Made by a program: the position numbers and the translations under genes. Positions 1 to 11,458 of a DNA stretch of 11,458 bases are shown here, piece after piece (position 1 is the first letter of the stretch; each line of letters begins with the position of its first letter). The DNA lies in NCBI GenBank assembly GCA_027482985.1, contig JAIXVO010000027.1:1-11458 (forward strand). Direction: 5' to 3'. This DNA is from Cyanobacteriota bacterium. GTDB lineage: Bacteria; Cyanobacteriota; Cyanobacteriia; Leptolyngbyales; Leptolyngbyaceae. The notes under the pieces were generated by a model. The model searched no databases. It had not been told where the DNA came from and saw only the letters and a program-made list of their open reading frames with translations.

Positions 1-227
1 CGACCCTGAGTTTCCGCCAGTGTGTAGCCCGTTAGCACTTCGGCGGCGGGATTCATATAAACGCACTGCTGCTGCTCGTTCATGATGAACAAAGCCAGTG
101 TCGCATTCTGGCAAATGACTTCCAGCTGGCGTTTATAGAACGCCGCCGATCGCTCATCTGAGGTCGACCCATTCTGGGGCGATCGCACGGTTGACCCAGA
201 TGTTGAAAATGTTGATTCAGAGGTCAT
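1..227 (-). CDS. PAS-domain sensory protein, N-terminal fragment (runs off left edge)
   Basis: Reading the minus strand from an ATG at 227..225 gives 75 uninterrupted codons to the window edge. The first ~27 residues are Ser/Thr-rich and low in complexity. From about residue 30 the sequence reads as the start of a PAS domain (FYKRQLEVICQNATLALFIM, then a YMNPAAEVLTGYT-type stretch), with the usual Asn-Pro-Ala-Ala and Gly-Tyr positions. PAS domains sense ligands, redox state or light, and usually sit at the front of histidine kinases, diguanylate cyclases or phosphatases. The output domain lies outside the window, so the protein class is unknown. No signal peptide or membrane segment is visible in this part. 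No strong ribosome-binding site is seen before the ATG, so the start is probable, not certain. The gene points the same way as the protease operon but is separated from it by 382 bases. Confidence 0.75.
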   Translation of the reverse strand, partial: MTSESTFSTSGSTVRSPQNGSTSDERSAAFYKRQLEVICQNATLALFIMNEQQQCVYMNPAAEVLTGYTLAETQG

Positions 228-609
228 AGTTGACTCGCTTCATTGGTCTCACTGGCAGATCTCACCTGACTACCTTGAGAACTTTCCCTGCTGTATTTTC
301 ACTTACTTTGGCTGATGATCACAATGATTCTCATAATTTGCTGAGTAAAATGCGGCAATGACTCGCACTAGACCCATCACAGGGTCACGATCGCGAGTCA
401 GTGAGAAAATACATTCTCGAACGATTAGAAGTCAATCATAAATTACATCTATCTTCCGATAGAGGTTCAGTGGAGTGAACGTTTGCATCGCTTCAATTGA
501 GATCTGAAAAATCAACATCTTCCAGGATCACGCATTGACGTAGGCACAACTGGCAGTTGCCTTGCCCCCAACCTCGCGATCGCGCTTTCCTGTGATCTGA
601 GCAATCCAT
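228..609. other. Intergenic region without a gene; nested inverted repeat
   Basis: This 382-base gap holds no convincing coding frame. It should carry the promoter of the PAS gene and the 3' end of the protease operon message. Visible structure: an 8-bp perfect inverted repeat (359-366 with 393-400) enclosing a second 5-bp one (371-375 with 382-386), and a small 5-bp repeat at 465-469/476-480. One HIP1 octamer lies near 550. No hairpin followed by a T-run, on either strand, was found that would mark a clear Rho-independent terminator. Confidence 0.6.
359..400. repeat. Nested double inverted repeat
   Basis: The arms TGACTCGC (359-366) and GCGAGTCA (393-400) are perfect reverse complements. 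Inside them GACCC (371-375) and GGGTC (382-386) pair around a 6-base loop. Together they could form a branched or stacked hairpin in RNA or a cruciform in DNA. No poly-T tract follows on either strand, so an intrinsic terminator is unlikely. It could be an intergenic repeat unit, a processing signal or a protein-binding site. The pairing is seen; the role is not known. Confidence 0.45.
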
Positions 610-1455
610 CTAGTTGTCTTCGTGCTCCTCTTGCAGCCAAGTCAGGGGATCGAGTTGGTAATACTGCCGTAATTGGTCATACAGGGTGGGGTGATGGCGT
701 TGGAGCGATCGCGGTTGTTCAAAAAAAGTTTCTGTGGCAACGGCAAAAAACTCAGCGGGATTGGTGGCTCCATAGGGATTGAGCACTGGTTTGCGCCCCT
801 GTTGTACCGCTGCACAGAGTTGCTGATAGACGGGTGTCATCACGGTTGCCCAGGTGTCATAATCTGTCCGCCGCCGTAAAATCGGCACCCCATCTGCTCG
901 CCCATCCGCCTGATCCAATTGGTGGGCGAACTCATGCAACACCAGATTATGTCCATCCTGCCAATGCTGCCGATCCCAGGCGATCGCATCCCACGCTAGC
1001 ACCACCTGATCCGCTGTCCAGGATTCCCCCAGGCGCGTTTCCTGCTGTTCCGTCACCACAAAGCGGTCAATCGCAGTGGTAGCTTTAACCCGATAAGCCG
1101 TGGGATACAGCAAAATCGATCGCAAGTTGGTAAACTCCCGTCCCGGCTCCGCCAACAGCAGCACACAGGCGATCGCCGCGATCGTTACTTGCATTTCGAC
1201 CGTGACTTGCAACCCGCCACAGCCAATAAACTGCTTTTCCGCTAAAAACACCTGAATCTGCCCCTGCAACCGGCGCCGTTGACTGGGGGACAGGCGATCG
1301 TAGGCAGGGAAAGTGTCACTGACAACAGCCTCCCAGAGCGGCGGAAAAGGTCTTTGTTGCCACCGCGATCGCTGCCACTGCCGCACCACCGGACGCAACC
1401 AAATCACGGCAATCATTGCCCCCATTAGCCCCACTACAATCGCCGCTTCTCCCAT
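610..1455 (-). CDS. Zinc-dependent peptidase, MtfA/M90 family, membrane-anchored
   Basis: The 281-residue product carries the zinc-peptidase motif HEFAH at residues 174-178, followed by QLD. The downstream stretch NPAEFFAVATETFFEQP (232-248) is the family signature that supplies the third zinc ligand (a Glu). This arrangement is that of peptidase family M90. The E. coli member MtfA (about 265 residues) binds the glucose repressor Mlc and has aminopeptidase activity; the cyanobacterial substrate is unknown. Residues 4-20 are hydrophobic and followed by basic residues, so the protein is probably anchored in the membrane with its catalytic part in the cytoplasm. It is the last gene of a four-gene minus-strand unit, 41 nt after the LuxR-type regulator. 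Its ribosome-binding site is weak, which fits translation from a shared message. All recognised catalytic residues are present, so it is likely active. Confidence 0.88.
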   Translation of the reverse strand: MGEAAIVVGLMGAMIAVIWLRPVVRQWQRSRWQQRPFPPLWEAVVSDTFPAYDRLSPSQRRRLQGQIQVFLAEKQFIGCGGLQVTVEMQVTIAAIACVLLLAEPGREFTNLRSILLYPTAYRVKATTAIDRFVVTEQQETRLGESWTADQVVLAWDAIAWDRQHWQDGHNLVLHEFAHQLDQADGRADGVPILRRRTDYDTWATVMTPVYQQLCAAVQQGRKPVLNPYGATNPAEFFAVATETFFEQPRSLQRHHPTLYDQLRQYYQLDPLTWLQEEHEDN

Positions 1456-1496
1456 CCGTCGCCCTGCTAATCTGTGCCACTTTCCAGTATGCCAAT

Positions 1497-2171
1497 TTAC
1501 AGCAGAATCAATCCCTGCCGAGCGCCCAAAATCACCGCTTCCGTCCGGCTAGAGGCGTGCAGCTTACTGAAAATCGACCCAATATGGAACTTCACCGTAT
1601 GTTCCGAAATCGCCAACCGCCGCGCGATCGCCTTATTGCCCAACCCTTCCGCCAACATCGTCAGCACCTCCACCTCTCGTGCCGTCAATGCCGCTTGGGG
1701 CGTGATGGCGGGTAACGGCTGCGGCACCCCCGCTAGCAGTGCTTCACTCAGATCCGGATGAAGCACCATGAGTCCCTGCTGCACCGCCGCGATCGCTGCC
1801 ACCAGTTCCGCCGCCGTCGCCGCCGCCGCCAACACCCCCCGCACCCCCGTCTGCAACACCAGCGGCACCGCCTCCACCTGCCAATCATCCACCCACAGCA
1901 CTACTGCCGGATTGGGAGCCAGCAACGGTTGACCCCATTGCAGATCCAACCGGGGCAAGCGATCGCTATGCAGCAACGGCCAGTGCAGCACGATCACATC
2001 CGGTAATTCCGGTTGCCAGTCATCCAGCGCCGCTAAATCCGCCACCTGGCCCACCACTTCCAGCCCCGGCTCAAGGCTCAGTAACGCCGCTAACCCAGCT
2101 TGCAGCACAATCGAACTGGCGACCACCAGCACTTGAATTACGCTGCCGTCGAGATCGAGTTCTTGCTGCAT
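1497..2171 (-). CDS. LuxR/NarL-type transcriptional regulator with degenerate receiver domain
   Basis: The product has 224 residues. Residues ~160-224 form a clear LuxR-type helix-turn-helix (LTAREVEVLTMLAEG, NKAIARRLAISEHTVKFHIG, then SKLHASSRTEAV). Residues ~11-142 have the length and secondary-structure pattern of a CheY-like receiver, but the phosphorylation residues are gone. The acidic pair after strand 1 is Ala-Ser (VLVVASS, 18-19), the phospho-Asp position is His63 in DVIVLHWP, and the conserved Lys near 115 is Ala (GVLAAAAT). This regulator is therefore unlikely to be controlled by phosphotransfer. The start codon lies inside the end of the upstream protease gene (34-nt overlap) and has no clear ribosome-binding site, which suggests translational coupling. 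The inter-domain and receiver regions are Ala-rich and GC-rich. Targets cannot be read from the sequence; autoregulation of this protease operon is a reasonable guess. Confidence 0.88.
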   Translation of the reverse strand: MQQELDLDGSVIQVLVVASSIVLQAGLAALLSLEPGLEVVGQVADLAALDDWQPELPDVIVLHWPLLHSDRLPRLDLQWGQPLLAPNPAVVLWVDDWQVEAVPLVLQTGVRGVLAAAATAAELVAAIAAVQQGLMVLHPDLSEALLAGVPQPLPAITPQAALTAREVEVLTMLAEGLGNKAIARRLAISEHTVKFHIGSIFSKLHASSRTEAVILGARQGLILL

Positions 2172-3016
2172 AAAATCACATTCACGTGCATGTCCTGTTG
2201 GTTCCGACGAATGGTTAGCGGCAACCCATCACCTGGTTGCGACTGCGCCAGAATTTGCGGCAATTCCGGCACCCGGCGAAAGGGTTGCCCCCGTACTCCC
2301 ACAATGACATCCCCCACCTGCAATTGGGCAGCGGCAGCGGGACTCTCGGCCTCGATCGCCGTCATCAACCAGCCGTAACTGGCGCGTCGAGCCACACCTA
2401 ACTGTACAGGTTGCACCGTGACTCCCAGATAGGCCGTTGCTTGCCCCCGCTCTAACCACTGCGCGATTGCGGTACTGGCGATCGCCACGCCCCGTCCCTG
2501 CACAATCATCGTATTCATGCCAATCACTTCACAGCGGGCATTCAGCAAAGGACCACCCGAATTCCCTGGAGCCAGGGCGATGTCGGCGTGCAGCCAATGG
2601 CGCGTCGGGCTGGAGGGTGTTCCGGTGGCATGAATAATCCCCGTTGTAACCGCGCCCGGTTGCCCATAGGGGTGACCAACCGCGACCACCACTTCTCCCA
2701 CTCGCACTTGATCCGAATCGCCCCAGGTGAGCGTCGGTAAATTCGTGGCGGGAATTTGCAAGACGGCAAGATCCCGGTGACTGTCTCGCTGGCGCACCGT
2801 GGCCGGGAATTGCCGCCCATCCGCTAATTGCACTTGCAACGAAGGACTTTGAATGACATGGGCATTGGTCAAAATTAGCCCGTTCGCTTGCCAGATCATG
2901 CCCGCTCCGGCTTCTCCTCTGCGTCCCGTAATTCGGACTGTAAATGGTTGGGCGGCACTGGCGATCGCGGCTAAGTCTGCCGCTATTTGCGGGGGTAAGG
3001 TACTTTGACTCGTCAT
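2138..3016 (-). CDS. Trypsin-like serine protease with PDZ domain (HtrA/DegP-like), cytoplasmic
   Basis: The chosen start is the ATG at 3016..3014. It is preceded by an excellent ribosome-binding site (AGGAGG on the minus strand, within 3021-3028) and lies one base after the stop of the preceding gene. A longer reading from 3049 would overlap that gene. The 292-residue product has the S1C triad: His53 in LILTNAHVI, Asp82 in SHRDLAVLQI, and Ser153 in APGNSGGPLL. A PDZ domain follows at ~195-283 (YLGVTVQPV, then LQVGDVIVGVRGQP). There is no signal peptide or membrane helix, unlike the exported cyanobacterial HtrA, HhoA and HhoB, so it should act in the cytoplasm. It is shorter than classical DegP (~450) because it has one PDZ domain and no export sequence. 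It is the second of two adjacent protease paralogues and the more canonical one. Confidence 0.93.
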   Translation of the reverse strand: MTSQSTLPPQIAADLAAIASAAQPFTVRITGRRGEAGAGMIWQANGLILTNAHVIQSPSLQVQLADGRQFPATVRQRDSHRDLAVLQIPATNLPTLTWGDSDQVRVGEVVVAVGHPYGQPGAVTTGIIHATGTPSSPTRHWLHADIALAPGNSGGPLLNARCEVIGMNTMIVQGRGVAIASTAIAQWLERGQATAYLGVTVQPVQLGVARRASYGWLMTAIEAESPAAAAQLQVGDVIVGVRGQPFRRVPELPQILAQSQPGDGLPLTIRRNQQDMHVNVILCSKNSISTAA

Positions 3017-3017
3017 C

Positions 3018-3938
3018 TTAGTCCTCCTGCGTGGGGCGTTCCCCAACAATGATGGTGATTTCCGTGAACATGCCCCCTCGAATCAGCCGCGCCGTCAGGG
3101 GTTGACCAATGCGATCGGGATCCAGCAGCGCTAGCACATCACTGACATCCCGCAGCGGCGTTGACCCCAGACTAATCAAAATATCTCCCAGCAAAATCCC
3201 AGCCTGGTCAGCGGGTGCTTGCGGTTCCACACTCACGACCATCACGCCCGTTGACTGGGTGAGAGCGAGCGTCGTCTGGAGGCGTTCCGGTAATTGAATC
3301 GCCTGCATCCCCACGCCTAAATACCCCCGCACAGCCCGCCCCCCACTCAGGAAATAATCCACCACGCGGTTAATCGTCGCGGCGGGAATGGTCATCGCCA
3401 TCTGGCGAGGTCCCGCCGTATTCATGCCGATCGCCTGCCCCGCCATATCCACTAACGCACTTCCCGAAAAGCCGGGATAAAGCAGCAACGCCGGACGAAT
3501 CAGTTGATCAATGCTGCCGCCTTGCCAACTGCGCCAACTCGCGCCCATTGTACTGATCACCCCCATGCTGGCACTCACCCCATGCTCGCGGGTGCGGGCG
3601 ATCGCCAGGACACAATGCCCCACCTGCGCGGTTGGCTCAGTGGCAAGAGTGACCGTGGGCAGGGACAAGTCAGGCACTTGCAAAACGGCGATGTCGGTGC
3701 CCGGATCGCGACCGATCAGGGTGGCCGTGACGGTCTGTTCATCGGGCAAAGTGATGGTAATTTCGTCTTCTCGATGCAGGGTGTGGTCAGTGGTGACCAG
3801 GATGCTCGATCGCCAGTGAATCCCACTGGCAGAACGGCGACGATGCCCATTGAGGGCCACGATCGCGGCTTGCGAGCGCGCCACCAAATCGGCTAACTGT
3901 TGAGAAAATTCCCCCAAGGGACTAACTGCTGTGGTCAT
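3018..3938 (-). CDS. Trypsin-like serine protease with PDZ domain, diverged paralogue
   Basis: The start is placed at the ATG at 3938..3936 because GAGG lies five bases upstream and the protease homology starts soon after. An upstream ATG at 4055 would add 39 residues of no recognisable character. The product has 306 residues. The triad positions are His52 (LVTTDHTLHRED), Asp82 (DPGTDIAVLQVP) and Ser158 in YPGFSGSALVD, where the family consensus is GNSGGP. A C-terminal PDZ domain spans ~205-298 (YLGVGMQAI, LLGDILISLGSTPL). No export signal is present. The changed serine loop (Gly-Phe-Ser-Gly-Ser) and the altered His neighbourhood suggest different specificity or reduced activity, although all three catalytic residues are retained. 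It is the first gene of the operon, one base before the second protease. The pair may form mixed trimers, since HtrA proteins are generally trimeric; this is inference. Confidence 0.9.
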   Translation of the reverse strand: MTTAVSPLGEFSQQLADLVARSQAAIVALNGHRRRSASGIHWRSSILVTTDHTLHREDEITITLPDEQTVTATLIGRDPGTDIAVLQVPDLSLPTVTLATEPTAQVGHCVLAIARTREHGVSASMGVISTMGASWRSWQGGSIDQLIRPALLLYPGFSGSALVDMAGQAIGMNTAGPRQMAMTIPAATINRVVDYFLSGGRAVRGYLGVGMQAIQLPERLQTTLALTQSTGVMVVSVEPQAPADQAGILLGDILISLGSTPLRDVSDVLALLDPDRIGQPLTARLIRGGMFTEITIIVGERPTQED

Positions 3939-4171
3939 GGCATCCTCGTTCGCAACGGTACTGTGATTCAAACTGCGATCGGAACTGTGCTCCGATGTCT
4001 TCCAGGATGCAAGTTGTGTGAGCAAATTAACATCGGCAAAACTGGTAGTTTGCACCCTGGAAAAATGGGTGGGAGCAAGGCAGAATTTGTATGGAATTTG
4101 TTGCTTCGGGCAATCAGTTATTAGTCATATGTGTCATTATTTTGCAGTTAAAATAGAAGTCTGATTAAGTC
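3939..4171. other. Operon leader and intergenic region without a gene
   Basis: The 233 bases upstream of the first protease contain no supported gene. The segment 3939-4055 is open in the protease frame, but the ribosome-binding site at 3938 argues against it being translated. The segment 4080-4170 is AT-rich and holds the best promoter candidate for the operon. It implies a long 5' leader if that promoter is right. No riboswitch was recognised. Confidence 0.5.
4086..4113 (-). promoter_or_regulatory. Possible sigma-70-type promoter of the protease operon
   Basis: On the minus strand TTGCCC (4113..4108) and TACAAA (4091..4086) are separated by 16 bases, about 148 bases before the ATG of the first protease. 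The -35 match is fair and the -10 is weak (TACAAA against TATAAT). The surrounding DNA is more AT-rich than the operon, as expected for a promoter region. The site is a guess from consensus only. Confidence 0.25.
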
Positions 4172-4516
4172 GTTGAGCAGTGTCATGAACAATTTTTTAC
4201 GCAGTTAGCTGATGTCCATGGCATCATTTTTGAACTGAAATCTTTGGCTCCAGGTGCGATCGCCAACCCAGAAATAACAAAAGCCGTCTTTACGCATTCA
4301 CGGCAGAAAAGTTTTGCTGCAATCCGCATGGCTTTTAACGCCACGACTAAAATTCGCGATCGCAGTGTCCTTAGCCTCTTTACAGGTGCACTCTTGTCGC
4401 AAACGGGCGACTTGGAAATCACTGCGGTAGTTGCAGTATCTCAGAGTATTCCATTTTTTCAGCCTAAATTGCATACCTTCCAGAAGCGACGAATGATTAG
4501 CAGTTGTCCTGATTAG
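4172..4516 (+). other. Unassigned open frame, probably remnant
   Basis: A plus-strand frame is open from just after a TAA near 4166 to a TAG at 4514-4516 (about 115 codons). It has no ATG or GTG; the first usable start is a TTG at 4244, giving 90 residues. The peptide contains plausible protein-like stretches (LAPGAIANPEITKAVFTHS, then FAAIRMAFNATTKI) but no family was recognised. The opposite strand also has two open frames here, so coding direction is uncertain. It stops in the same frame that continues into the ABC exporter remnant, but the sequence shows no Walker A or ABC signature. It is either a decayed gene or a conserved non-coding region. Confidence 0.25.
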
Positions 4517-4540
4517 GGACGAATTTCGGGGTGCCTCGTA

Positions 4541-4696
4541 CTCCTTAACACCGACCACTTGCTAACCCAAACAATTCGTCCTGCAGATCGCATTTATGTC
4601 TTACAAAATGGTCGCCTCTTGCAACAGGGCAACTTTGACGAATTAGCGGCTCAACCCGGGTTATTTCAACAACTGGTGGAACGACAAACAGTTTAG
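4541..4696 (+). pseudogene. C-terminal remnant of a peptidase/bacteriocin-type ABC exporter
   Basis: The plus-strand frame ending in TAG at 4694-4696 encodes about 50 residues typical of the very end of an ABC exporter ATPase domain. The reading is DHLLTQTIRPADRIYVL, NGRLLQQGNFDELAAQPG, then LFQQLVERQTV. In a complete protein this follows the H-loop helix (usually ...AHRLSTI..ADRI..L..G). The ending with a short Gln/Arg-rich helix is characteristic of NHLP/bacteriocin-type or HlyB-like ABC exporters. Walker A, Walker B, the LSGGQ signature and all membrane helices are missing, and an in-frame TAG lies at 4514. There is no start codon with a ribosome-binding site. The gene is therefore a dead 3' stub. 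It converges on the Uma2 gene downstream, and the two stops overlap by a few bases. Confidence 0.75.
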
Positions 4697-5259
4697 AGAA
4701 ATAGTCGCTCGACAGCACAGCTAAACTCAGGCAACAGCGGAGAGGTGAGAGTATCGTTGGGGAATAGGGTACAGACCAGTTTCAGTAAGGCTTGCTGGCG
4801 ACGGTACACTTCCACTTGGGGCGATCGCCAATCTAAGATCCAATATTCCTGAACGCCCCGTTCTGCATAAAGTTTGAGTTTGGCTTCCCGATCTCGTCGT
4901 TCGTTCTGTGTCCCCGCAGACAGCACCTCCACGATCAGTTCTGGAGCCAAGGTCAAGTGTCCAGCTTCATCCAACCCATTCGCCAATCGCTCGTTGCTAA
5001 TCCACACGACATCTGGAATCACATTATCGGCATCGCTAAAGATCACTCCCGGTGCTTGAACGGCCTCACCTAAACCCGTGGACAGTGACCAGGTATCGAG
5101 AGCATTACTAACACGGCTTGACGTTTTTTGATGTTTCCAATGTGGTGCTCTGGTCACAAACAGTTCTCCATCAATAATCTCGTAGCGGTTGCTGCTTTCG
5201 GGCAACAGTTCCAGATCGGAAGTTGTCCAGCGAACTCGCTCATCAGTAATCTGGTTCAT
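4693..5259 (-). CDS. Uma2-family PD-(D/E)XK endonuclease-like protein (copy 1)
   Basis: The 188-residue product has the Uma2 (DUF820) layout: NRYEIIDGELFV near residues 24-35, PDVVW with Asp83, LAPELIVEVLS with Glu111, and a Lys-bearing helix (EAKLKLYAERGVQEYWILD, 125-143). Asp, Glu and Lys make up the PD-(D/E)XK nuclease core, and all are present. Length is normal for the family (~180-200). Uma2 proteins are unusually abundant in cyanobacteria and often cluster in tandem; their biological role is not firmly established. The ATG at 5259 is preceded only by a weak GGA, so the start is less certain than the body. It is the downstream member of a tandem pair. Identity with copy 2 is limited to family motifs, so this is not a recent duplication. 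Its stop overlaps the stop of the ABC exporter remnant on the other strand. Confidence 0.9.
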   Translation of the reverse strand: MNQITDERVRWTTSDLELLPESSNRYEIIDGELFVTRAPHWKHQKTSSRVSNALDTWSLSTGLGEAVQAPGVIFSDADNVIPDVVWISNERLANGLDEAGHLTLAPELIVEVLSAGTQNERRDREAKLKLYAERGVQEYWILDWRSPQVEVYRRQQALLKLVCTLFPNDTLTSPLLPEFSCAVERLFL

Positions 5260-5303
5260 GGGGTGATCATCCAGAGCAGTTTTTTCATTTTAGTGGCTTG
5301 TTA

Positions 5304-5366
5304 CCAGGAAGTGGGATAGCGCTTCAATATTTGACAGTCAAAAAATATGTCAGGGCAATTTCCTGG
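5304..5366. repeat. Inverted repeat between the two Uma2 genes
   Basis: CCAGGAA (5304-5310) and TTCCTGG (5360-5366) are perfect 7-bp reverse complements. The loop between them holds the palindrome TTTGAC-A-GTCAAA. The structure could fold in the transcript between the two Uma2 genes. It has no terminal U-run in the expected place, so terminator function is unproven. Confidence 0.35.
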
Positions 5367-5384
5367 CACTGGCAATCTGCCTCA

Positions 5385-5954
5385 TTATCCTGCATTGAGC
5401 ATGGTTGCTGCTGTCAAATTGAGAGTCGGCAATTGGGGCGATCGCACCTGTTGGTCACCCTGATAAACCTGTTCCTCATACAAGCCGTTGACCCATTCCA
5501 AAACAGTCACCTTCTGGGCGATCGGGTCTACAATCCAGTACTCCGGAATTCGCCTGCCAGCGTACTCAGTCCGTTTGTAGCGATAGTCTCTGTCCTCCTG
5601 CTGCGGACTCACGACCTCCACGACAACTAATGGTGGGGGCATATCGTGAGTGATCAGGGATTGCTTGGCTCCTTCCAGAGCGATCGCAGCCTCTTCTGAC
5701 AGCACGATTAAATCAGGCTCCCGGACGGTCACTGTTGCCCCGCTGACTGCAATTTGGGTCTTGATTGCTAGCTGGTTGTCAGGAATTCCTAAGTTACTCA
5801 ATTGGGTGAGTAGAAAGACTGCAATTTGGATGTTCAGCCGACTTTCTGGAGGCATCGCAATCAATTCCCCATTGACGAGTTCGTAACGGGTATCGGTGCC
5901 ATCGTCATAATTCAGGTATTCCTCAAGGGTCATCGGTTTGGCTGCAACAGACAT
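5385..5954 (-). CDS. Uma2-family PD-(D/E)XK endonuclease-like protein (copy 2)
   Basis: The 189-residue product opens with the classic Uma2 N-terminus ([20 protein letters not shown], then [11 protein letters not shown]). It carries the nuclease core Asp81 in REPDLIVL, Glu113 in VVVEVVSP, and Lys127 within [20 protein letters not shown]. The C-terminus ([12 protein letters not shown]) matches the usual end of the family. The ATG at 5954 has a strong ribosome-binding site (GGAGGT, about eight bases upstream), so this start is well supported. It is the upstream gene of the tandem Uma2 pair, 125 bases before copy 1. It is divergent from the truncated secreted-protein gene. The protein is predicted to be soluble and intact; the substrate is unknown. 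Confidence 0.92.
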
Positions 5955-5981
5955 CGCGCTTACCTCCAGGCATCTACGCTT

Positions 5982-5987
5982 ACTATA
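5982..5987 (-). promoter_or_regulatory. Candidate extended -10 box for the Uma2 pair
   Basis: On the minus strand the sequence TGGTATAGT contains a good -10 hexamer (TATAGT, 5987..5982) with an upstream TG extended motif. It lies 28 bases before the ATG of Uma2 copy 2 and would give a short leader containing the GGAGGT ribosome-binding site. A good -35 box at normal spacing is not seen, as is often the case with extended -10 promoters. Confidence 0.4.
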
Positions 5988-6107
5988 CCAACTCAGCCAG
6001 GCGAGGATGACAGTCGTTTCAAGGTTCAGCGATCGCCATGCATATCTTCCCAGGCAGGAGAGTGATATATCTGTGAAAGCATTCTTTGCCTGTGGAGGAT
6101 TTGATAG

Positions 6108-6266
6108 ATGCCCCCTCGTCTGAAATCGGTTGGTTTGGCTCTGGCTCTGCTTGGTTCTGGCGCGTGCTGCTTGGCAGATACTGCGAGGGGCGCGTCGTTC
6201 GTTCCCACTGCGAATGCGTCAGTGGTTCAGGCTCAAACCCAACCCTCATTACCGCCAAAGGATTAG
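6108..6266 (+). pseudogene. Truncated secreted protein: signal peptide stub
   Basis: An ATG at 6108 has GGAGG at 6094-6098 upstream and opens a 52-residue frame ending in TAG at 6264. The peptide is a textbook export signal: a basic start (MPPRLKSVG), a hydrophobic core ([14 protein letters not shown]), and a candidate cleavage region after Ala (NASVVQAQ). After that only about ten residues remain (TQPSLPPKD) before the stop. A Cys pair in the core could hint at a lipoprotein, but the lipobox is poor. The good ribosome-binding site and signal peptide mark a real gene start whose mature part is gone. Transposase DNA begins within about 100 bases, so truncation by an insertion is the likely cause. 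The original protein cannot be identified. Confidence 0.6.
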
Positions 6267-6370
6267 CCTTCCTCAATTCAGCAGCTTTTGAGCACAGCAA
6301 AGCAGCAGTGCATTGATGTAAATGCAGGGAAAAATCATGATGAGAGTGGGTGTAAGTTGGTGAGCTAGGC
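6267..6370. other. Boundary between secreted-protein stub and IS1-like element
   Basis: These 104 bases carry no gene. The left end of the IS1-like element must lie here or slightly to the left, but no terminal inverted repeat can be assigned. The right end of that element appears lost, which removes the partner needed for comparison. Confidence 0.4.
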
Positions 6371-6727
6371 ATGAAACCGGAGTTGCTGTGTCCCACTTGC
6401 GGGTCAACCGATATCAAGAAAAACGGTACGACCCGACGGGGTAAACAGCCTCATCGATGTCGCGATTGCGGTCGGCAGTTTGGGCAAAACCCGCGATGGC
6501 AACCCCAGTTTTCTGACACGAAAGCAATCATTGATCGGTTGGTGGTGGAAAAGATCCCCCTAGCTGGGATTGCGCCGGCCCTGCAAGTCTCGGAAGCGTG
6601 GTTGCAACAGTATGTCAATGCGGCTGATACGGCGGTGCCCCAACAGGTTGCAGGCACGCCCAAAGCGCCACAACGCTTCAATGTGCAAATGGATGAGGTG
6701 TGGGCGGTGGTGGCTGATAAGGGCAAT

Positions 6728-7131
6728 AGACATTGCCGGAATAGCAAGGCACTGGAAAGCTTTACAGCCCAGCACTTCTAGCAATTTCAAGTTTAAGCTG
6801 CTTGGAGTTGACGATGAGTGAGCTGAAAGTTGTGCAGCCCACAAGCTGTTTCCATCACGTCATCGACAAAATGAGCGGCATGGTTACGAAACTGAATGGT
6901 GACCACCGCCATACCGACGCGCTCGCGGTTTTTGGATATGTTCTTGCTCAATGTACGCTTGCCACGCGGCATCGAAGCTTACCAGCAATTGCTCAAACTC
7001 TTGGGGCTTCCGTCCAGTCAGGCTTTGGAGCATATCGGGCTTGCCTTGAACTTTCGCATAGTCCAGCATCTGCTGCTGCTCCGAGTGTGCTCTGTCCTGC
7101 TTCTTCGACTAGCTTATTTCCGGGCAAGTCT
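6728..7131 (-). mobile_element. IS5-family (ISL2-like) internally deleted element, 404 bp
   Basis: The left end AGACATTGCCGGAA (6728-6741) and the reverse complement of the right end, AGACTTGCCCGGAA (7131..7118), match at 11 of 14 positions. The element is flanked by the direct repeat AAT (6725-6727 and 7132-7134). Three-base ANT duplications are characteristic of the ISL2 subgroup of IS5. Inside, on the minus strand, lie the first ~50 codons and last ~36 codons of one transposase, joined near 6900. A complete element of this type is roughly 0.85-0.9 kb, so about half is missing. It cannot encode a transposase but keeps both ends, so an active relative could still move it. Confidence 0.75.
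6793..7069 (-). pseudogene. IS5-family transposase remnant: N- and C-terminal ends fused out of frame
   Basis: From the ATG at 7069 the minus strand reads MLDYAKVQGKPDMLQSLTG, then KPQEFEQLLVSFDAAWQAYI and RARRYGGG. This is the helix-turn-helix N-terminus of DDE_Tnp_4-type IS5 transposases. After the GGG at about 6905 homology stops, and this frame ends at a TAA at 6884. In another frame the strand continues as FRNHAAHFVDDVMETACGLH, then NFQLTHRQLQAA and a TAA at 6795..6793. This is the characteristic C-terminus of the same family (VMExxCGLHNFR). The whole catalytic DDE core between them is deleted and the fusion is out of frame. No functional protein can be made. Confidence 0.75.
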
Positions 7132-7188
7132 AATCAGTCCAAGAATGCTTGTTGCTATTGGCTGCGCATCACCCAAACGAGGCATTGA

Positions 7189-7247
7189 ACGTACTCTTCT
7201 TAATTTTATTGATTGTATGTACTTGCTGGAGTAAGGTTGATTTTTAC
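7189..7247. other. Junction between IS1 debris and NRPS-PKS gene
   Basis: These 59 bases are AT-rich and hold no recognised gene. They contain GGAG at 7228-7231 and AAGG at 7233-7236, which could serve the TTG start at 7248 with wide spacing (11-16 bases). No convincing -35/-10 pair is seen. The NRPS frame is already open through this segment, so it could also be read through from upstream. Confidence 0.35.
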
Positions 7248-10200
7248 TTGATAGGGGTTCAGAATAAATTTGTTATTCAGCAATCTGGACAACCTCAATT
7301 GGATCAGTTTTTTGCAGCAGCGCAATCATTTTGGCAACAGCAGTTACAGAATTTTGTGACTGGCTCTTCTGGGGTTGCTCATTCCGATGCAAAAGGTGAT
7401 CAATTGAGCTTACCAGATTATGGATATCACCTTATTCAATGCCCTGAATCTCTGAGCGCTGAATCGATTGCTCTCTTAAATCGATACCGTTTAGATCAGG
7501 TCAGTTTATGGGTCAGTCTGTGGGCGATTCTACTGCACCGCTACAGTCGTGAAACTACGATTGTTTTTGGTGTACAGGTGCAGCAAGAAGCAGCTGGAGT
7601 TGTCGTTCAGACGGTCGATGCGATGCCCTTGCCCATGTGCCTTGCCGTCATACCTGATAGTTCAGTGTTGGCTTGGTTACAGGGAGTCCAAGCGCAGTAT
7701 GAGCAACTCCAGAAGCATGGGCAAATTAACCTGGCGCAATTGCAAGAATGGTGTGGCGTGCCAACCACAAGCCAGTTATTTGAGAGTGTGGTAGTGGTCT
7801 CCGATCGCATTCCCAGCCCAGCCGCCGAGGTCACCGTGCCCACGGGTACCGATCAGTTGCCACTGGTGTTGCTAGCGCACCAGGTGGAGCCCTTTACTTT
7901 GACAATTCGCTACGATCGCAATCATTTCAACGCCGATACGATCGCGCGTTTGGCTGGGCATCTCTACACCTTGCTGGCAGGGATGGTGACCCAACCGCAG
8001 CAAACGCTGCGAGATCTCCCCTGGCTTACGCCGCCGGAAAGACAGCAGATTTTGGTGGAGTGGAATCAGACCCAAACGCCTTATCCTGACGATCAAACTA
8101 TTCATCAATTATTTGAACGCCAAGTGCAGCAGACCCCGACGGCGATCGCCGTCGTGCTGCCAGCCACACCGTCGGGCACCGTTCGGCAATTGACCTATCA
8201 ACAACTGAATGATCGAGCCAATGCACTGGCAGTAGAGTTACAACAAGGCGGTGTGCAACGTGGCACCTTAGTGGCGATCGGGATGGAGCGGACACCCGAA
8301 ATGATCGTGGCGATCGTCGGCATTCTCAAAGCGGGAGGGGTATATGTGCCACTCGACCTGAGTTACCCCCGCGATCGCCTGGCTTGGATGCTACAGGATA
8401 CCCAGGCACCCGTCATTTTGACCCAATCTGATCGGATTCATGACTTGCCCCCCCACGCCGCTCAGGTGATTTGTCTAGATGCCAATTGGGGCGAGCAGGT
8501 TGCGACTGTGCGGCCTCAGAAATGTCAACTGACAAGCGACGATTTGGCGTACGTGAACTACACTTCTGGGTCAACCGGCACCCCCAAAGGAGTGGCCATT
8601 CCCCATCGTGGCGTAGTGCGATTGGTGTGCGGCACCGAGTTTACACCCCTCGATCGCCACCAAACGTTTCTCCAACTGGCTCCGATCTCCTTTGATGCCG
8701 CCACCCTGGAAATTTGGGGGGCACTGTTGCAGGGTGGCTGTTGTGTGCTTTACCCAGGTCTAGGTATTCCCGATCCCCACCTGTTGCAGACCATCATTCG
8801 CCAGCATGGGGTGACCAGTCTGTGGTTAACCGCTGCCTTGTTTAATAGCCTGATCACAGAAGCACCGGAGGCGTTGCAAGGCATTAAAGAACTGCTGACG
8901 GGCGGCGAGGCGCTGTCGATGCCACACATTCGCCGGGCGCAAGCGCGGTTGCCAGAGACGCAACTGATCAACGGCTACGGCCCCACCGAAAACACGACCT
9001 TTACCTGTTGTTATCGCATTCCGCGGCCGCTGCCAGAGCACCTGACCAGTATTCCGCTGGGCCGCCCGATCGCTAATACAGAAGTCTATATTCTGGATGA
9101 CACGCTGCAACCCGTTCCCGTCGGGGTAATGGGTGAATTACACATTGGTGGGGCAGGGTTAGCGAGAGAATATCTCAACCGTCCGGATTTGACTCAAGAA
9201 CGGTTTATTGCCCATCCTTTCAGCCCCGCTCCCGCTGCCCGACTGTATAAAACCGGAGATTTAGCGCGCTTCCGGCCCGATGGCACGATCGAATTCATCG
9301 GCCGCAAAGATAAACAGGTCAAGATTCGGGGCTACCGGGTGGAATTGGGCGAAATTGAAACCGTCCTGGGTCAGCAAGCGGGGGTCCGGGATGTCATTGT
9401 GATCAGGCGCGAAGATCGACTCGGTCAGCCGCAACTGGTTGCTTATGTGACCCCGTCATTGGCTCAAACCCTGAGTGTTAGCCAACTGCAACAAGGCTTA
9501 CAGGAGCGGTTACCCGCTTATATGGTGCCGAGTGCAATCGTGGTGCTAGATAAGATTCCCCTGACTCCCAATGGCAAAGTCGATCGCCAAGCTTTACCTG
9601 TGCCACCGCCACCCCGACTGGCGCAGTATGTGGCTCCGAGGTCAGGGCTGGAAACGGAACTGGCAGCACTTTGGGCCAATGTCTTGGGCTGCGATCGCGT
9701 TGGGGTTGAGGATAACTTCTTTGATTTAGGGGGCACATCGCTGCTGGGGATGCGATTGATTGCCCGAATTCAGCAGCAGTACGATGCTCAGTTGCGCGCG
9801 GTCATCCTGTACCAATATCCCACCATCCGCCGATTGGCTCAGTATTTGCAGGCAAAACCTGAGCCGGGGGTAAAGTCAATGCTTGCCGCCGAGCGATCGC
9901 CCGTCGCCCCTACAGGGATCGCCATCATTGGGATGGCGGGACGGTTTCCGGGAGCCAACAGTGTGGAGGAATTGTGGCAAAATTTGTGTGCTGGGAGGGA
10001 ATCAACGACCTTCTTCACGGATGCAGAACTGGATGCTAGCGTGCCGCTGGAACTGCGATCGGATCCCCATTACGTGCCCGCCAAAGGTATCGTTGCCGGA
10101 GCCGAAACCTTTGATGCGGCCTTTTTTGGTATCAGCCCAGGCGAAGCCGAGGTGATGGATCCGCAAGCGCGAGTGTTTCTGGAACTAGCACATACAGCCC

Positions 10201-11458
10201 TAGAAACAGCGGGTTATACCCCGGAATTCTTTACTGGACACATCGGCTTATATGCGGGTTCTGGGCAGAATACCTATTTTGAACGCCATCTCTGTGGGCG
10301 ATCGCCGATCATCGATCGCCTCGGTGCCTTCCAAACCATGCTGGCGAACGAAAAGGATTTTGTCACCACCCGCACGTCCTACAAACTCAACCTGACAGGT
10401 CCCAGCCTCAGTATCAATACCGCCTGTTCGACCTCGTTGGTGGCCGTAATTCAAGCCGTTGAGGGCTTAACCCGTGGTCAGTGCGATCTGGCTCTGGCAG
10501 GTGGCATTTCGATTCAGACTCCCCAAAACACGGGCTATCTGTACCAGGAAGGGGCGATGCTGTCTCCCGATGGGCGTTGCCGCCCCTTTGATGCCCAGGC
10601 TCAAGGCACGATGTTCAATAATGGTGCCGCGATCGTGGTGCTAAAGCGCCTGGAAGATGCGATTCAGGATGGCGATCGCATCTATGCCGTGATCAAAGGT
10701 GTCGGCATGAACAATGATGGAGCCGATAAAGTCAGTTTCACTGCGCCCAGTGTGCAGGGTCAAGCTACTGCCATTCGGACGGCACAAGCCAGTGCTGGCG
10801 TGCACCCGGAAACCATTACCTATATTGAAACCCATGGTACCGCTACCCCATTGGGCGACCCGATCGAAGTCGAAGCATTGACTCAGGCGTTTCGAGCGCA
10901 GACCGCCGCCACCCAATTTTGTGCGATCGGTTCCATTAAAAGCAATGTTGGGCATCTGGTGGCGGCAGCGGGGGCAGCGGGACTGATCAAAACGGCTCTG
11001 GCACTGTACCACCAACAAATTCCTGCCAGTTTGAATTTTCAGTCCCCCAATCCCGAAATTGATTTTGCCAATAGTCCCTTTTATGTCAATGCCCAGTTGA
11101 CAGAGTGGCGCACCGGGACGACCCCCCGGCGAGCTGGAGTTAGTTCTTTTGGGGTGGGTGGCACCAATGCCCATGTCATTCTGGAAGAAGCGCCGCCACC
11201 GATCGCGACCACTGCGGCTCGCCCGTGGCAACTGTTGTTGTTATCGGCAAAAACGGCAACTGCGCTCGATCAGGCGACGCTCAATTTGCAACAGCATCTC
11301 CAGACCTCCATGCCATCGTCAACCACCGCGATCGCAGATGTGGCTTATACGCTCCAAGTGGGGCGCAAAAGTTTTAATCATCGGCGGTTCGCGGTTTGTC
11401 AAACGTCCGCAGATGCGGTGCCGGTGTTAGCCCAACTTGATCGGCATCGCACCGCCAG
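7248..11458 (+). CDS. Hybrid NRPS-PKS: partial C, A (valine-like), PCP, KS; runs off right edge
   Basis: The frame is open from 7134 to the window end (no stop in about 4.3 kb). It has no in-frame ATG near its beginning; TTG at 7248, behind GGAG/AAGG, is the best start, giving at least 1403 residues. Residues ~6-265 are only the C-terminal lobe of a condensation domain (FWQQQL, then LLHRYSRETTIVFGV, ending RLAGHLYTLL); the HHxxxDG lobe is absent. The adenylation domain (~272-790) has YTSGSTGTPKGV (438), FDAATLEIWG (483), NGYGPTE (575), KTGDLARF, GYRVELGEIE and NGKVDR (Lys777). Its ten-residue code reads DALWLGGTFK, close to known valine codes. The carrier domain has DNFFDLGGTSL with Ser831. 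The ketosynthase (~890-1315) is complete: Cys1060 in NTACSTSL, His1196 in ETHGTAT and His1236 in KSNVGHL. A KS-AT linker follows. It would activate a valine-like residue and pass it to polyketide extension. Confidence 0.93.
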   Translation, partial: MIGVQNKFVIQQSGQPQLDQFFAAAQSFWQQQLQNFVTGSSGVAHSDAKGDQLSLPDYGYHLIQCPESLSAESIALLNRYRLDQVSLWVSLWAILLHRYSRETTIVFGVQVQQEAAGVVVQTVDAMPLPMCLAVIPDSSVLAWLQGVQAQYEQLQKHGQINLAQLQEWCGVPTTSQLFESVVVVSDRIPSPAAEVTVPTGTDQLPLVLLAHQVEPFTLTIRYDRNHFNADTIARLAGHLYTLLAGMVTQPQQTLRDLPWLTPPERQQILVEWNQTQTPYPDDQTIHQLFERQVQQTPTAIAVVLPATPSGTVRQLTYQQLNDRANALAVELQQGGVQRGTLVAIGMERTPEMIVAIVGILKAGGVYVPLDLSYPRDRLAWMLQDTQAPVILTQSDRIHDLPPHAAQVICLDANWGEQVATVRPQKCQLTSDDLAYVNYTSGSTGTPKGVAIPHRGVVRLVCGTEFTPLDRHQTFLQLAPISFDAATLEIWGALLQGGCCVLYPGLGIPDPHLLQTIIRQHGVTSLWLTAALFNSLITEAPEALQGIKELLTGGEALSMPHIRRAQARLPETQLINGYGPTENTTFTCCYRIPRPLPEHLTSIPLGRPIANTEVYILDDTLQPVPVGVMGELHIGGAGLAREYLNRPDLTQERFIAHPFSPAPAARLYKTGDLARFRPDGTIEFIGRKDKQVKIRGYRVELGEIETVLGQQAGVRDVIVIRREDRLGQPQLVAYVTPSLAQTLSVSQLQQGLQERLPAYMVPSAIVVLDKIPLTPNGKVDRQALPVPPPPRLAQYVAPRSGLETELAALWANVLGCDRVGVEDNFFDLGGTSLLGMRLIARIQQQYDAQLRAVILYQYPTIRRLAQYLQAKPEPGVKSMLAAERSPVAPTGIAIIGMAGRFPGANSVEELWQNLCAGRESTTFFTDAELDASVPLELRSDPHYVPAKGIVAGAETFDAAFFGISPGEAEVMDPQARVFLELAHTALETAGYTPEFFTGHIGLYAGSGQNTYFERHLCGRSPIIDRLGAFQTMLANEKDFVTTRTSYKLNLTGPSLSINTACSTSLVAVIQAVEGLTRGQCDLALAGGISIQTPQNTGYLYQEGAMLSPDGRCRPFDAQAQGTMFNNGAAIVVLKRLEDAIQDGDRIYAVIKGVGMNNDGADKVSFTAPSVQGQATAIRTAQASAGVHPETITYIETHGTATPLGDPIEVEALTQAFRAQTAATQFCAIGSIKSNVGHLVAAAGAAGLIKTALALYHQQIPASLNFQSPNPEIDFANSPFYVNAQLTEWRTGTTPRRAGVSSFGVGGTNAHVILEEAPPPIATTAARPWQLLLLSAKTATALDQATLNLQQHLQTSMPSSTTAIADVAYTLQVGRKSFNHRRFAVCQTSADAVPVLAQLDRHRTA

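Follow-up and report, generated by a model that had tools for sequence, protein, structure and literature searches.

The cyanobacterial DNA analyzed here (the window; 11,458 nt from a Cyanobacteriota bacterium of the Leptolyngbyaceae, GCA_027482985.1, contig JAIXVO010000027.1, positions 1 to 11,458) contains a minus-strand gene cluster that encodes two HtrA-like proteins, A and B, and a NarL/LuxR-type regulator, RR. These three genes constitute a unit, to which the adjoining fourth gene does not belong, and a tandem-box element precedes A. We are highly confident that the unit is a conserved, autoregulated module. As the best explanation of the whole, to which we give roughly an even chance, we propose an autoregulated cytoplasmic protein-quality module in which A restrains RR.

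A (3018-3938, minus strand) comprises 306 residues from the ATG at 3938, and its frame in the open reading frame list starts further upstream at a GTG. B (2138-3016, minus strand) comprises 292 residues from its ATG. Both proteins consist of a trypsin-like domain followed by a C-terminal PDZ domain (Pfam Trypsin_2 and PDZ_2). The PDZ domain of A spans residues 205-297 (3048-3326, minus strand) and contains the carboxylate loop GYLGV, and B has an intact His-Asp-Ser triad. RR (1497-2171, minus strand; 224 residues) combines a degenerate receiver with a GerE DNA-binding domain and ends in the free C-terminal tail RQGLILL (1500-1520, minus strand), which tail comparison marks as a candidate PDZ ligand. 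The fourth minus-strand frame (610-1455; 281 residues) encodes an MtfA-like M90 peptidase. The four frames are spaced by 1, -34 and 41 nt, as the earlier note on this DNA reported.

The A-B-RR unit is by no means confined to the window. A scan for RR in one genome per GTDB species yielded 135 relatives, and the best 80 loci (L031-L110) were analyzed; because 80 of 135 relatives were kept, the diversity described here is a sample. Counts out of 80 take in these loci only, and the 85 aligned RR rows and 55 complete B sequences additionally include the window and L002-L005 (L002, L141 and L034 represent a single locus, as do L146 and L066). By record label, 44 loci are from Cyanobacteriota, 21 from Chloroflexota, 12 from Acidobacteriota and one each from Rokuibacteriota, Methylomirabilota and Altimarinota. 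Single phylum labels may be wrong because many records are metagenome bins, and the Altimarinota-labelled row clusters with cyanobacteria on a quick tree. A and RR lie in one same-strand cluster in 70 of the 80 loci, across several phyla, with RR preceding A in four Chloroflexota loci. Five of the ten loci that lack a clustered A are cut within ~220 nt upstream of RR, and a family-grade A (314-404 bits) is located elsewhere in six of the eight such genomes that were searched (L064, L075, L085, L089, L105 and L108). B accompanies A in 50 of the 70 A-bearing loci, at full length in 34 and in a short form of 182-216 residues that lacks most of the PDZ domain in 16; it is missing from the other 20.

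A second survey of 292 cyanobacterial genomes finds RR in seven genomes and A in the same seven plus one weaker case; with no more than 8-10 candidates scored in each genome, both numbers are minimum values. In all seven, A and RR lie within ~1.3 kb on the same strand. The cassette is therefore thinly distributed, yet its components are found together. The trees of A and RR also agree (Mantel r 0.895, reached in 0 of 999 permutations, 69 pairs). The clustering of A, B and RR is far above chance. Clustering of the other neighbors in the 80 loci reveals only generic sensor-kinase and ABC-type genes, synteny local to Nostocales and an unexplained frame in seven loci. The gene order of the three-gene core is not unique to this genome, which counts for that part of the unit proposed in the earlier note, whereas the link to the M90 gene is, within the loci and regions covered, seen only here.

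The upstream regions of A from clades of different phyla share an alignable block, which we describe as a tandem-box element and a predicted operator. In the window, the element occupies 4031-4073 on the minus strand (nhmmer E 2e-10), with box 1 at 4056-4073 and box 2 at 4031-4048, and the element model R1 matches 4028-4074 with 39.9 bits. The consensus reads cCTAgCCAtTTtTCtAGG, about six bases and then CTacCCa.tt..c.GATG. A model iterated from 31 pattern seeds detects the element in 62 of 69 A upstream regions at E<0.01 and in 67 of 69 at 0.5. It is located 63-165 nt before the A start codon in all but one locus (L034, 313 nt), and in genome G007 it lies ~400 nt before the A frame. Because the seeds were drawn from the same loci as those counted, controls matter. 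A search of 80 RR upstream regions, five of them short, returns one match, in L073, a locus without A, and reversed sequences return none. In 1.14 Mb of fetched sequence, every match at E<0.01 stands before A or, in L073, before RR; the one departure is in L144, where the same site is also matched in reverse.

The element seems to occur about once per genome. When R1 was run over the 292 genomes with stricter filters and 20 scored candidates per genome, its score was 37 bits or more in all seven genomes that have A and RR, at one site each, and did not exceed 22.6 bits anywhere else; the absence elsewhere is the telling part, because at least five of the seven genomes supplied rows to the model. 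Among 21 chosen family-bearing genomes, 18 show a single strong site, which precedes A, and nothing else above 18 bits except a reverse reading in G008. A regulon beyond the operon was considered and rejected, as no second strong site appears in these 18 genomes. Since the shared control site seems to be this rare, the unit is most likely self-regulating.

Downstream of box 2, a -10-like hexamer occupies a conserved position (CATCCT at 4004-4009, minus strand, in the window). Measured from the GATG of box 2, the pattern xAxxxT appears at a distance of 24-26 nt downstream in 63 of the 65 elements that could be anchored out of 70 (L141 and L146 dropped); across 500 shuffles, the count averaged 13.7 and never exceeded 23. 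Box 2 ends at about the place expected for a -35 hexamer, and together with the fixed distance of the -10-like hexamer this suggests the geometry of an activator site. The hexamer also argues against reading the element as an RNA leader or attenuator of A instead of a protein-binding DNA site. A 5-bp hairpin is possible in box 1 of many sequences, and of five covariation measures, two tend to exceed the shuffled values (33 and 47 of 500). However, the main measure, the share of paired cells, is 76.1% against 75.1% in shuffles (89 of 500), and the window and four further loci have no Rfam match. We consider an RNA leader distinctly improbable.

RR is the protein expected to recognize the element. 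Pfam calls its GerE domain and no receiver model, and the predicted structure combines a receiver-like fold with GerE (mean predicted local distance difference test (pLDDT) score 89.3; nearest structures LiaR, ChrA, VraR and NarL). The recognition helix is nearly invariant among the relatives. In one clade (L056, L059, L060 and L065), the helix reads HTIKYHTSAIF instead of HTVKFHISSIF and box 2 ends in GGGG instead of GATG, which looks like the joint change that binding by RR would predict, in a single event. We consider it quite likely that RR binds the element. As a separate observation, an 80-residue frame in L006 (G023:C44:249876-250109) matches only the DNA-binding half of RR, ends in GLIML and may be either a headless relative or a remnant.

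How is RR switched? The earlier note described the regulator as blind to phosphorylation, and the sequences support this description. In the window, the acceptor position is His and the acidic pair is Ala-Ser. Across the family, all 82 rows that have a residue at the first acidic position show a replacement there, as do all 85 rows at the Thr/Ser switch position and 84 of 85 at the Lys position. At the acceptor position itself, 31 of the 85 rows carry Asp, 27 Glu and 15 Ala. RR could accordingly be read as an ordinary response regulator that is served by an unlinked kinase and simply targets A and B, and sensor-kinase-like genes do lie near some loci (the largest cluster covers 11 of 80). Such a reading must accommodate the family-wide replacement of the other receiver residues and the lack of a kinase as a constant neighbor in the 80 loci, and we regard it as rather improbable. 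The receiver of RR is probably unable to accept a phosphoryl group.

The constant partner of RR is A, and its features differ from those of a conventional HtrA protease. Characterized HtrA/Deg members are usually exported or membrane-anchored. In line with the earlier note, which described A and B as lacking export signals, neither shows a hydrophobic N-terminus: the maximal 19-residue hydropathy of the first 60 residues is 0.84 in A and 1.17 in B of the window, and among 70 A and 50 B sequences, only three, all of them A, attain 1.6. Export was judged from hydropathy alone, a crude measure by which the soluble RR itself reaches 2.17. A and B are predicted on this basis to be cytoplasmic. At best, they score 148.8 and 211.4 bits, respectively, against an NCBIfam HtrA/Deg cut-off of 416.2, and no cut-off is reached. 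The predicted structure of A (mean pLDDT 93.9) is nearest to DegP, Deg1 and DegS, including DegS-peptide entries. Three A-like HtrA sequences (231-241 bits; G039:C128:48686-49603, G328:C11:99317-100228 and G332:C412:29063-29977) fall between family A and ordinary HtrA and are possibly a sister family.

The catalytic residues of A are kept in some sequences and lost in others. Once A sequences cut by contig or locus ends (< ~280-285 residues, e.g. L046 and L080) are excluded from the triad, tree and element counts, the triad is intact in 36 of 69 sequences; in the other 33, His, Ser or more of it is gone, with 17 reading Glu-Asp-Ala. A of the window has an intact triad. The quick tree requires at least five changes. 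The PDZ carboxylate loop [GPA][YF][LIV]G[VLI] is nevertheless kept in 69 of 69 sequences, dead ones included. Because catalysis was lost several times while the peptide site of the PDZ domain was kept, A would sense rather than cut.

These counts bear directly on a proteolytic switch, in which RR or a repressor would be processed through cleavage by A or B. Cleavage of the regulator was suggested in the earlier note; the data do not support it as a general mechanism, given that A is dead in 33 of 69 sequences and that 13 loci combine a dead A with the absence of B. In its favor, A is live in the other 36, the B triad is kept in all 55 complete sequences and the B-RR junction is a 4-nt stop/start overlap in 35 of 47 loci. 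But B is missing from 20 of 70 A-bearing loci, and no recognizable family B was found elsewhere in five genomes with a dead A and no B at the locus (L072 was outside this search, which included G029 as a genome with a short B). The matches in those five genomes are mostly frames of ~360-460 residues with up to 232 bits, a range that short B variants overlap, so that this negative is not absolute. We consider a proteolytic switch unlikely. Because of the 13 loci with a dead A and no B, A and RR are the core of the system. Control of RR by A without proteolysis is the reading that we favor by a narrow balance.

A possible means of such control lies at the C-terminus of RR. RR ends exactly in G-hydrophobic-[ILV]-x-[LIFV] in 79 of the 80 loci. 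The exception is L054, whose RR ends early, apparently by a frameshift, and which was omitted from one tail count; the RR frame of L046 ends in GLILL. The same tail is found in all 120 relatives listed of the 1866 found, the window among them. Other NarL-type proteins share this end in 4 of 45 cases (51 of 55 control loci gave a row, of which six are family members; the 45 that remain include a similar pair, L128 and L140, and the poorly matching L134). The tail fits what we take to be a class II PDZ ligand. A contact between the PDZ domain of A and the tail of RR is our working hypothesis, and it may be how A controls RR, although here we lean slightly to the negative.

The conserved gene cluster, the element with its hexamer, the degenerate residues of RR and A and the RR tail are observed directly, and from them we infer the following scheme. 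RR would bind the predicted operator before A and activate the A-B-RR operon. Because the element is the only strong site in nearly all genomes examined, the outputs of the system would be A, B and RR themselves. A would restrain RR, perhaps by holding its free hydrophobic tail in the PDZ domain. Under stress, exposed C-termini of damaged proteins would compete for the PDZ site, release RR and thereby raise A and B, and B, where present, would degrade the damaged proteins.

Several observations weigh against this scheme or parts of it. The triad of A is intact in all 14 complete Chloroflexota sequences. An A-family search of the genomes of L070 and L073 found no family A in either, and L073 retains both the RR tail and the upstream element. 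The agreement of the A and RR trees is also expected from shared inheritance, and 31 of 85 RR rows retain Asp at the acceptor position. With respect to the tail, 23 of the 45 NarL-type controls end hydrophobic, 7 end hydrophobic-x-hydrophobic and one control ortholog group ends uniformly in a GLV/GLI-type sequence; thus, a fixed hydrophobic end needs no PDZ domain. The RR tail is predicted as a coil with a mean pLDDT of 91 over its last four residues, and because this prediction is confident, the tail may pack on its own domain. For these two reasons, the PDZ-tail step is put forward as a hypothesis. The element is missed at E<0.01 in 7 of 69 A upstream regions and entirely in two, G034, G323 and G324 carry the family yet show no strong site, and the shared origin of seeds, model rows and counted sites noted above belongs here as well. 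A generic promoter scan lists no site before A, and activation, as opposed to repression, is suggested by spacing alone.

The M90 peptidase adjoining RR requires separate consideration, given that the earlier note counted it as a component. It matches Peptidase_M90 with 310 bits, contains the HExxH motif as HEFAH and falls below the NCBIfam MtfA equivalog cut-off (112.3 vs 400 bits). The maximal 19-residue hydropathy of its first 60 residues is 2.19, consistent with one membrane helix. In the window, the gene lies on the same strand as RR across the 41-nt gap, and no terminator-like site was found on the minus strand in 300-4300, so a local co-transcript is possible. However, the gene accompanies the unit in 0 of 80 loci, 73 of which have at least 1.5 kb downstream, and in none of seven further regions (two of these are L034 and L066 again). 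Of 29 relatives, 4 carry a member of the family; G007 has A-B-RR, but its M90 gene lies elsewhere in the genome. M90 is therefore rejected as a component, and a four-gene proteolytic unit, which we hold to be very improbable, is refuted as a general system. The two HtrA-like proteins and the regulator of the earlier proposal remain.

An anti-phage defense or conflict system would be another role for the three genes. PADLOC reports weak matches to protease parts of reverse transcriptase-protease proteins, to PDC-M35A and to helix-turn-helix parts of CARF proteins, but these cover generic domains and only parts of the profiles. Neighbor clustering shows no conserved defense gene, and in the passages found, two papers on conflict systems describe no such operon. 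We consider this role extremely unlikely.

The A-B-RR module resembles several known systems in part. In the actinobacterial dnaK operon with hspR, a regulator is encoded with the proteostasis factors that it controls, which is the arrangement proposed here. HspR is a repressor with a MerR-type fold and its partner is an Hsp70, whereas RR is NarL-type and probably an activator, with a putative HtrA-fold binding partner. DegS has an HtrA fold with one PDZ domain, as A does, and its PDZ domain reads free hydrophobic C-termini. DegS cuts RseA at the membrane, whereas A is a predicted cytoplasmic protein that has often lost catalysis and is co-encoded with its regulator.

MamO is reported to be a degenerate HtrA that stimulates the proteolytic activity of an active one, and its catalysis was lost independently in several lineages (PMC4794232). 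MamO and MamE thus form a pseudo-HtrA and HtrA pair, and MamO is a precedent for a non-catalytic HtrA helper, whereas they serve magnetite biomineralization and the passages considered mention no linked regulator. A 2016 review of cyanobacterial Deg proteases had already pointed to Deg proteins without catalytic activity in Nostoc punctiforme and Anabaena variabilis, for which it proposes neo-functionalization (PMC4877387). These inactive Nostocales proteins are possibly members of family A, and the passages of that review considered here, which treat unusual Deg proteins of Nostocales and Gloeobacter, do not describe an operon with a regulator, an upstream element or a spread beyond cyanobacteria. 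BldM and WhiI are orphan, atypical response regulators of the NarL type (PMC4125116). They act in Streptomyces development, and the excerpts considered mention no protease partner.

We found no description of the A-B-RR operon or its element in full-text literature, coverage of which mostly excludes subscription journals. The tandem-box element before A, with a -10-like hexamer at a fixed distance, is new here. More tentatively, and with less than even confidence, we suggest as new that a repurposed, often-dead HtrA inhibits RR directly through its PDZ domain and senses stress, holding this kinase-independent regulator by the free C-terminus of RR in a one-target feedback loop that is conserved across Cyanobacteria, Chloroflexota, Acidobacteriota and others, with an active B as an optional part.

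Response regulators with broken receivers are common, and their switch is usually unknown. The switch of RR is testable, given a constant partner gene nearby, a free tail, a PDZ site that persists where catalysis is lost and, as a read-out, a single predicted operator in each genome. HtrA proteins are known chiefly from the envelope. If the proposal is true, protein quality control in bacteria would gain a new layer in the form of a widespread, cytoplasmic branch of HtrA proteins that has a regulator of its own, and A would clearly exemplify the conversion of a protease into a signaling scaffold.

The remainder of the window holds genes and remnants of other kinds. The N-terminal part of a PAS-domain protein (Pfam) is cut at the window edge (3-227, minus strand). 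Upstream of the element, a plus-strand frame at 4532-4696 resembles, by eye, the tail of an ABC-transporter ATPase without its front and is apparently a remnant. Two adjoining Uma2-family genes (PF05685, Pfam) follow on the minus strand at 4693-5259 and 5385-5954. The segment 6371-7069 contains a plus-strand frame with a zinc ribbon like that of IS1 InsA (22.8 bits, under the Pfam cut-off) and, by eye, a short transposase-like minus-strand frame; the two are probably insertion-sequence remnants. Finally, the beginning of a large hybrid nonribosomal peptide synthetase-polyketide synthase gene, with adenylation, carrier and ketosynthase motifs recognized by eye, occupies 7149-11458 on the plus strand and continues past the window.

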